Assembly (NCBI GenBank): GCA_900696645.1
Contig: CAADGV010000024.1
Span: 159,039-223,038, forward strand
Direction: 5' to 3'
DNA: 64,000 nucleotides
Source of the DNA: an uncultured Chlorobiota bacterium
Lineage (GTDB): Bacteria > Bacteroidota > Ignavibacteria > UBA10030 > UBA6906
The position numbers and the translations under genes are program-made. Below are positions 44,605 through 49,369 of this stretch, piece after piece. The notes beneath the pieces are model-generated. The model was not told the origin of the DNA. It worked only from the letters and a program-made list of their open reading frames with translations, and did no database searches. Every line of letters begins with the position of its first letter. Positions within the stretch are counted from its first letter, which is position 1.

Positions 44605-44624
44605 AAAACCGCGAAGGCGCGAAG
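44605..44624 (+). repeat. AAAACC-CGAAGGCGCGAAG repeat, copy 1
   Basis: AAAACCGCGAAGGCGCGAAG lies 22 bp after the stop of the preceding glycosyltransferase. The same 20-bp sequence with one change recurs at 49325 inside the end of another glycosyltransferase gene. Confidence 0.65.
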
Positions 44625-47833: not shown

Positions 47834-47883
47834 TGAGGGCAGATAGAGAATGAATGTGGGTATTCATCCGACCTCACCCCAAA

Positions 47884-47906
47884 CCCCTCTCCTGAGAGGA
47901 GAGGGG
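47884..47906. repeat. Perfect GC-rich hairpin repeat between two glycosyltransferase genes
   Basis: CCCCTCTCCT (47884-47893) and AGGAGAGGGG (47897-47906) with a GAG loop, preceded by CCTCACCCCAAA. This is the kind of short palindromic intergenic repeat widespread in many bacterial genomes. The T-run is short (CTTT), so termination is possible but not certain. Confidence 0.65.
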
Positions 47907-47926
47907 CTTTGCCCGAAGGGTGCGGC

Positions 47927-49369
47927 GTGAGAGTTGTGCTGGTTGTACAGAGTTTTCCGAAACTTTCCGAGACGTTTATTTTCCGTAAGGTCTCGGCATT
48001 GTTGGAAAGAGGTTGGGATGTGTATGTGGTATGCAGCGAATCGGAGGCCGTGGAATGGGTGTACTTCTTAGGGGGAGTTCACCGCGGAGACGCCGAGTAC
48101 GCAGAGGGAAATTCACAAAACAAAAACCACTCAGTGCCCTCAGCGTCTCGGCGGTTGATTATCTCATTACGATCTCGTGTTCACAAGGTATGGCCACACA
48201 CGCCTCATTGGTGTGCCGGGCTGTTGGTTCCCGTTGCGCTGATCCATTGTCTCGCAAAGAACCCGGTTGGAACAATCTGCTACCTCCGTCTCGGGTGGCG
48301 GTTGGTTGGAATCGGCGTCCTCAAAAAACTCTATACGGATCGTCCGATCATTTGCTTGAAGCCTGATGTAGTACACTTTGAATTCGGCGCGCTGGCAGTC
48401 GGGCGCATGCATCTTAAGGAATTGCTGCAGTGCCGGATTGTGGTGAGCTTCAGGGGGTATGATTTGAATTTTGCGGGGTTGGAGAGTTCAGTGGGATGGA
48501 CTAAAACTCCCCCAGAAGTAGATGGAGATACAAAGGGAATTCACCGCGGAGACGCAGGGTACGCGGAGGGGTACTTGTATTACCGTGAGATATGGGAGAA
48601 GGCGGATTGCCTGCACCTCCTCGGCGAAGACCTGTGGCGTCGGGCGCAGGCGCGAGGATGCCCGCCAGCAAAACACCACGTGCTGATTCCTCCGGCAATT
48701 GATACGGAGCAGTTCAATCCGGGTAACCGCATTCACGATGCCGTAGCCGGAACGCTTGCTCGTCCGCTTCGGATTCTCAGCGTCGGGCGGTTGGAGTGGA
48801 AGAAGGGATACGAGTTTGCATTGCGTGCGGTTCAGATGCTCGTTGCCCGCGGGATATCTGTCGAGTACCGGATCGTCGGAGCGGGAGCGTACTTTGAGGC
48901 GTTGGCGTTTGCACGGCATCAGATGGGATTAGAGAAGAATGTTGTGTTTGAAGGTCCCTTGTCTCCGTTAGTTCTCATTGAGAAAATGAAGTGGGCGGAT
49001 GTTTTTCTTCATGCAGCAGTCTCCGAAGGGTTCTGCAATGCCGTGATGGAGGCGCAATCAATGAAGTTGCCTGTCGTGTCTTCCGATGCCGACGGTCTTG
49101 GAGAAAACGTTGCAGACGGAAAGTCGGGATATGTCGTCCCGCGTCGCAATCCGGAGGCGCTTGCCGGGAGGTTGGAACACCTGGCACGAAATCCCGCTCT
49201 GAGGCAACGCATGGGCGAAGCAGGCCGCGTACGCGTAAAGAGAGAATTCAATCCCATGAGCCAACTCGCGGCGTTCGAGGGGGTATATCGCGGGGTCTTT
49301 GGGGCGATACATCCAAGGGATAGGAAAACCACGAAGGCGCGAAGACGCGAAGTGAGTTTAAGCGTGTAA
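47927..49369 (+). CDS. GT4 family glycosyltransferase carrying in-frame palindromic-repeat insertions
   Basis: 480 residues from GTG 47927 (GAAGGG upstream). The start MRVVLVVQSFPKLSETFIFRKVSA is typical of this GT4 group, and VVHFEFGALAVGRMHLKELL, VSFRGYDLNFAGLE, LHLLGEDLWRRAQ and EGFCNAVMEAQSMKLPVVSSDADGLGE are conserved blocks. Two foreign segments interrupt it: residues ~50-78 (HRGDAEYAEG onward) and ~185-215 (ending HRGDAGYAEG), both encoded by copies of one palindromic repeat in the same reading phase. The last residues (KTTKARRREV) come from another repeat. Whether the enzyme still works is unknown; the frame is intact throughout. Confidence 0.85.
   Translation: MRVVLVVQSFPKLSETFIFRKVSALLERGWDVYVVCSESEAVEWVYFLGGVHRGDAEYAEGNSQNKNHSVPSASRRLIISLRSRVHKVWPHTPHWCAGLLVPVALIHCLAKNPVGTICYLRLGWRLVGIGVLKKLYTDRPIICLKPDVVHFEFGALAVGRMHLKELLQCRIVVSFRGYDLNFAGLESSVGWTKTPPEVDGDTKGIHRGDAGYAEGYLYYREIWEKADCLHLLGEDLWRRAQARGCPPAKHHVLIPPAIDTEQFNPGNRIHDAVAGTLARPLRILSVGRLEWKKGYEFALRAVQMLVARGISVEYRIVGAGAYFEALAFARHQMGLEKNVVFEGPLSPLVLIEKMKWADVFLHAAVSEGFCNAVMEAQSMKLPVVSSDADGLGENVADGKSGYVVPRRNPEALAGRLEHLARNPALRQRMGEAGRVRVKREFNPMSQLAAFEGVYRGVFGAIHPRDRKTTKARRREVSLSV
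48078..48158. repeat. Palindromic repeat inside a glycosyltransferase gene, copy 1 (both arms)
   Basis: Left arm 48078-48106 (begins TTCACCGCGGAGACGCCGAG) and right arm 48130-48158 (ends CGTCTCGGCGGTTGA) are complementary at 21 of 29 positions by my count, with a 23-bp A-rich centre. It is translated as HRGDAEYAEG plus a following Ser/Asn/Arg-rich segment. Confidence 0.8.
48540..48571 (+). repeat. Palindromic repeat inside the same gene, copy 2 (left arm only)
   Basis: Begins TTCACCGCGGAGACGC and matches the left arm of copy 1 at 28 of 31 positions by my count. It lies in the same strand and reading phase (HRGDAGYAEG). No matching right arm follows within 100 bp. Confidence 0.8.
49325..49354 (+). 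repeat. AAAACC-CGAAGGCGCGAAG repeat, copy 2, within the end of a glycosyltransferase gene
   Basis: AAAACCACGAAGGCGCGAAG, then ACGCGAAG, supplying the last codons (KTTKARRREV) of the gene ending at 49369. The core differs at one base from the copy at 44605. Confidence 0.7.

Follow-up and report, generated by a model that had tools for sequence, protein, structure and literature searches.

Palindromic repeats in coding DNA

Rickettsia palindromic elements (RPEs; Ogata et al. 2000, as presented in PMC2229807 and PMC4316617) are palindromic repeats that occur both in intergenic DNA and, in frame, within genes coding functional proteins. In R. conorii, the insert-bearing guanylate kinase is both translated and active, and its substrate affinity is altered (PMC2229807). 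In-frame palindromic elements are recorded for Rickettsia, Wolbachia and Methanocaldococcus in the works cited by PMC2996958. The REPs of many free-living bacteria also have in-frame intragenic copies, including double insertions in one gene, and in recB of Xanthomonas different REPs occupy about one site in related species (PMC3733652). In REPs of the GTAG and CGTC types, stems measure 5–13 bp, loops are for the most part short, and one end has a GTAG or CGTC tag (PMC3733652). ERIC/RU-1, Correia and other MITE-like repeats provide open frames that are fused to genes (PMC2229807), while PARCELs are palindromic coding DNA whose tandem amphipathic repeat domains are expanded in genes (PMC2996958).

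The repeat analysed here lies in a stretch of 64,000 nucleotides (the window) from the genome of an uncultured Chlorobiota bacterium. We take this genome not to be a Rickettsia, its size (4.2 Mb), the ~51% GC content of the window and the presence of a T9SS C-terminal sorting domain in one gene being judged against general knowledge of Rickettsia genomes. The sorting domain would by itself suggest a Bacteroidota-like placement. Like RPEs, the repeat is palindromic and dispersed, with intergenic copies and in-frame intragenic ones, its insertion is tolerated and its palindromy decays gradually. It differs from them by its length (~75–85 bp versus ~100–150 bp for RPEs), by its lineage, by one of the copies described below (copy 2) being half an element, and by having convincing internal copies in one gene only, in this genome and in a sister species alike, whereas RPEs are found in many genes. 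By analogy, the repeat would work like an RPE without being one, the two being set apart by lineage and description. The resemblance to RPEs in an unrelated lineage, proposed in an earlier note on this DNA, holds for the in-frame loop inserts and for a gene that stayed open and under selection; however, the repeat family is almost wholly intergenic and the locus is not the first case outside Rickettsia, since in-frame palindromic repeats of other bacteria were already published (PMC3733652, PMC2229807). The phenomenon itself is known, best from Rickettsia, and this locus adds to it a clear new case from a non-rickettsial bacterium.

The likeness to GTAG/CGTC REPs lies in the mostly intergenic location, the preference for tandem and convergent gene pairs, the few in-frame copies (sometimes two per gene) and the finding of differing repeats at one site. 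The arms of 26 bp, the 23-nt loop and the lack of a tag at either end are unlike these REPs, and arm length and missing tag place the family outside the GTAG/CGTC definitions. Unlike GTAG-type REPs, it has no linked Y1 (RAYT) transposase: none of the three Y1_Tnp genes of this genome has a repeat arm within ~1.5 kb. With ERIC/RU-1, Correia and MITE-like repeats it shares the character of a small dispersed inverted repeat whose open frames extend or interrupt genes. Compared to a MITE, the inverted repeat is present, no transposase was shown, and no empty site was close enough in sequence to judge target-site duplication. The palindromic coding DNA inside a gene is also reminiscent of PARCELs, the tandem resemblance being limited to the array at site 2 of the sister species (see below). 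A text search of the literature for a description of the repeat sequence returned nothing relevant.

Repeat copies in a GT4 glycosyltransferase gene

The gene that carries the repeats (47,927–49,369, plus strand) codes a GT4 glycosyltransferase (GT-B). Its open frame of 480 codons, counted from the likely GTG start at 47,927 and preceded by GAAGG (47,915–47,919), agrees with the length given in the earlier note. The enzyme is of the exopolysaccharide type; its nearest NCBIfam model is EpsE/WcaL, with a score below the cut-off, and the best Foldseek matches of its structural model are MshA/BshA. The EX7E catalytic motif (E367/E375) is conserved. Other glycosyltransferase genes surround it, including a paralogue in the neighbourhood, and a further GC-rich inverted repeat (AAACCCCTCTCCT/AGGAGAGGGGCTT, 47,881–47,909) lies directly upstream. 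A scan of viral contigs for additional relatives of the enzyme found none.

Two segments of the gene, 48,073–48,108 and 48,535–48,570, form a direct repeat on the same strand with 32 of 36 bases identical, while the best direct match in codon shuffles of the gene (n = 60) reached only 25/36. The 28/31 identity reported previously corresponds to the sub-stretch 48,078–48,108/48,540–48,570. The two copies are in the same codon phase, and translation in this phase yields the peptides announced, HRGDAEYAEG (copy 1) and HRGDAGYAEG (copy 2). Copy 1 is a complete imperfect palindrome on the plus strand, with 26-bp arms (left arm 48,081–48,106; right arm 48,130–48,155, an imperfect reverse complement of the left) and a loop of 23 nt, whose RNA folds far more strongly than shuffled sequences (z = −3.78). 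Copy 2 (48,535–48,570, plus strand) is the left arm alone, so that the idea of a palindrome present twice applies in full to copy 1 only. The earlier note missed a third repeat (ACCACGAAGGCGCGAAGACGCGAAG, 49,328–49,352, plus strand), which belongs to a sister subfamily and supplies the C-terminal tail of the enzyme.

Alignment with uninterrupted homologues delimited the inserts. The site-1 segment (F47 to R82; 48,068–48,169, plus strand) has 34 codons versus 8–9 in the homologues, and the site-2 segment (L185 to Y218; 48,482–48,577, plus strand), read in this genome from one assembly of the species, has 32 versus 4. The net extra length is 25 or 26 residues at site 1 and 28 at site 2 relative to four homologues that have neither segment and are 50–55% identical (records titled Aggregatilineales, Thermoleophilia, Anaerolineales and Bryobacterales). 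The inserts are also absent from three more distant homologues of the same phylum and from the neighbouring paralogue. Both segments interrupt GT4 sequence that normally runs on, as had been claimed, and none of the eight homologues and paralogues compared has them, so that the refutation foreseen in the earlier note did not occur.

The repeat does not account for the left ~50 bases at site 2 (48,482–48,534). The genome holds no close second copy of this flank, and its single weak second match led us to reject it as a dispersed repeat. The insert contains a 16-base inverted match to the left flank of copy 1, TACTTCT[TA]GGGGGAGTT, equalled in 0 of 300 shuffled genes, a weak test because it was chosen after the match had been seen. 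Of all the repeat copies examined, copy 1 is closest to copy 2 and copy 2 to copy 1 (32/36; the next-best match is 30/36 for copy 1 and 27/36 for copy 2), a pattern more in keeping with local copying, or with a very close sister copy, than with two insertions unrelated to each other. Two copies need not mean two transpositions: copy 2 may have arisen locally from the left arm of copy 1.

The ortholog in a genome of the same genus (G001, the sister species) is an open frame of 590 codons. Its site 1 keeps the left arm of the palindrome (32/36 identical) in a shorter insert of 25 residues that is still in frame but no longer forms the strong hairpin (z = −1.37). At site 2, in the loop occupied here by copy 2, it has 138 residues from an unrelated in-frame tandem array of 10.8 units of 33 bp (CCGATTCTGGAGAATCGGGTTACGGCTGCCGGG; L089, 1517–1871). 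The 33-bp unit is confined to the G001 gene save for one weak match elsewhere, and is absent from G000 and G002. What is constant at site 2 is the site and not the element, as the repeat differs in the sister species, and this one loop took different repeat DNA in each of the two species. Seven collinear neighbour genes are 67–86% identical between the species with 0–1 gaps, so the length changes are particular to the GT4 gene. Over 382 core codons the orthologs give dN 0.18 and dS 1.48 (dN/dS ~0.12), indicating purifying selection, and the enzyme with its inserts still looks functional from its sequence. The identity of four-fold sites, 5/6 in the shared arm versus 70/148 in the core, hints, if weakly, at a younger arm or one whose DNA itself is constrained.

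An AlphaFold2 model of the enzyme (26 sequences) is a confident GT-B fold with a mean pLDDT of 86.5. Values below 50 were found only in insert 1 (residues 53–59), insert 2 (186–194 and 202–213) and the C-terminal repeat (464–480); in the sister-species protein they were limited to residues 51–60, 177–310 and the C-terminus. Both insert-bearing loops are in the N-terminal domain and the inserts are low-complexity. Note that a low pLDDT is expected for segments without homologues and is not proof of disorder. The model places the inserts in surface loops, as had been anticipated, predicts these loops to be disordered, and predicts an undisturbed fold around them.

The repeat family in this and other genomes

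The arm pattern matches this genome 69 times at ≤1 mismatch, versus 4 times for the reversed control. These arms form 54 clusters, 25 of which have both arm orientations within 110 bp. Using fetched genome stretches and a home-made gene caller, 40 of the 54 were assigned to intergenic regions, six to gene edges and eight to the inside of gene calls. The last group comprises the three clusters of the GT4 gene, two at gene 3′ ends and three chance-like single arms (in genes L101, L117 and L121), taken as chance since the reversed control itself gives four matches. The GT4 gene is the only gene of this genome with convincing internal copies; the search for other coding copies that the earlier note proposed gave no further convincing ones. 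The genes flanking the repeats form 37 tandem, seven convergent and two divergent pairs, a REP-like pattern. Locations between genes account for 26 of 30 in the sister species, where the GT4 gene again holds the sole convincing internal copy.

At least one exact arm was present in 79 of 395 sampled genomes of the phylum, with a very uneven spread. The exact arms surveyed in other genomes (201 in 150 loci) included two convincing internal copies; two lone arms without a partner (L327 and L338) and L272 were not counted as insertions. One of the two internal copies is a compact full palindrome, in frame within a type III methyltransferase-like gene (L201, minus strand, 1051–2682) of genome G085, which represents another family of the class. 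It is read in the phase of the GT4 copies and codes NRRDAEAQSE in a linker before GFKVFEL, where the solved relative 6k0w has ~11 residues fewer. The GT2-like gene L234 of G263 (minus strand, 1796–2830) has ~110 residues more than L081, and the extra residues include a copy of this repeat in another phase and the repeat-like peptides PPTE..., NTLYPIPYT... and TTEAQRHRE. Part of the gene is duplicated in tandem (97% over 240 residues), and it may be decaying.

Because one of their strands is poor in T, the arms rarely introduce stop codons. Of the six frames, 53% are open in the family's palindromes versus 42% in intergenic 75-mers, a modest effect. An Rfam search gave no known RNA or intron family above the gathering score; two weak matches to miRNA precursors, both on the minus strand, were dismissed as hairpin artefacts.

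Origin of the inserts

We consider it highly probable that a mostly intergenic palindromic repeat entered a loop of the GT4 gene before the species split, that a second arm was added later, and that the loops are near-neutral. From a family of dispersed palindromes, mostly intergenic and patchy over the phylum, a single copy would have inserted at site 1, in a variable loop on the surface of the N-terminal domain, before the two same-genus species diverged, the length of the repeat and its stop-free reading in the frame used keeping the gene open. The lineage leading to this genome would later have gained one arm of this repeat at the second loop (site 2), its most likely source being copy 1 or a copy very closely related to it, while in the sister species this loop would have grown instead by tandem duplication of the unrelated 33-bp unit. 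The added peptides would be translated as disordered loops and be roughly neutral; selection on the surrounding enzyme would maintain the frame of the inserts while the palindrome slowly decays. The insert boundaries, the orthologous copy at site 1, the differing filling of site 2, the purifying selection on the core and the low predicted order of the inserts are the direct basis of this reconstruction, from which we infer translation, neutrality and the direction of copying.

Two independent transpositions of a selfish, Rickettsia-type protein-coding palindromic element adapted to coding regions would provide another origin. The full palindrome at site 1 is in line with it, as is the compact in-frame palindrome of the same phase in the methyltransferase-like gene of G085, a member of a different family in the class. 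The strand and phase common to copies 1 and 2 also agree, but such a coincidence has a prior of 1 in 6. The two copies being each other's closest relatives, the missing right arm of copy 2, the nearly all-intergenic family in both species and the mere two convincingly internal copies among the 201 arms (150 loci) of other genomes make this origin unlikely. Assembly artefact or pseudogene decay deserves next to no weight: the assembly has 46 contigs and repeats favour misassembly, but site 1 is common to an independent genome at dS ~1.5, the frames are open over 480 and 590 codons, dN/dS is 0.12 and the EX7E motif is intact.

The inserts might also be more than neutral, if repeat-driven variation of loop length in the acceptor-side domain shifted enzyme specificity and hence the surface polysaccharide. 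Such a role, which we judge rather improbable, would suit the position of both loops in the N-terminal domain, a site 2 wholly different between species, a gene set among other glycosyltransferases, and a GT2-like gene of another genome with several repeat-derived inserts; the low complexity and predicted disorder of the segments, and the lack of such variation in other genes of the cluster, speak against it. There is likewise a slim chance that the glycosyltransferase genes of surface-polysaccharide clusters in this class are a sink for intergenic repeats, certain of their loops repeatedly taking up in-frame repeats of unrelated kinds, be it a palindrome, a minisatellite or another spacer repeat; if true, this rapid frame-preserving diversification of loops would alter the polysaccharide. 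At the other extreme, the inserts could stay untranslated, the hairpin being bypassed by the ribosome or the RNA segment removed. Copy 1 can form a strong mRNA hairpin, and bypassed palindromic elements are known from the mitochondria of the yeast Magnusiomyces capitatus (cited in PMC6649704). We find this very improbable, because every insert of both species is in frame and stop-free, which bypassing would not need, the sister-species copy has lost the hairpin, and no intron or other Rfam family scored above the gathering threshold.

With its shared insert, one loop with differing repeats, uninterrupted homologues and a structural model, the locus that we interpret as a site-1 insertion followed by local gain of an arm is an orderable case of a spacer repeat turning into protein. 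It supports the view of in-frame palindromic insertion as a rare but general side effect of the spread of repeats, one not peculiar to Rickettsia. Annotators should be cautious with such segments, which are not conserved domains.

Two further arrangements of related repeats were observed. An intergenic copy of the sister repeat (ACCGCGAAGGCGCGAAG, 44,608–44,624) is found directly downstream of another gene in the same cluster. In genome G025, short arrays (C50:27–206 and C52:446–680) show plus and minus arms alternating at regular spacing, in the manner of tandem palindromes.
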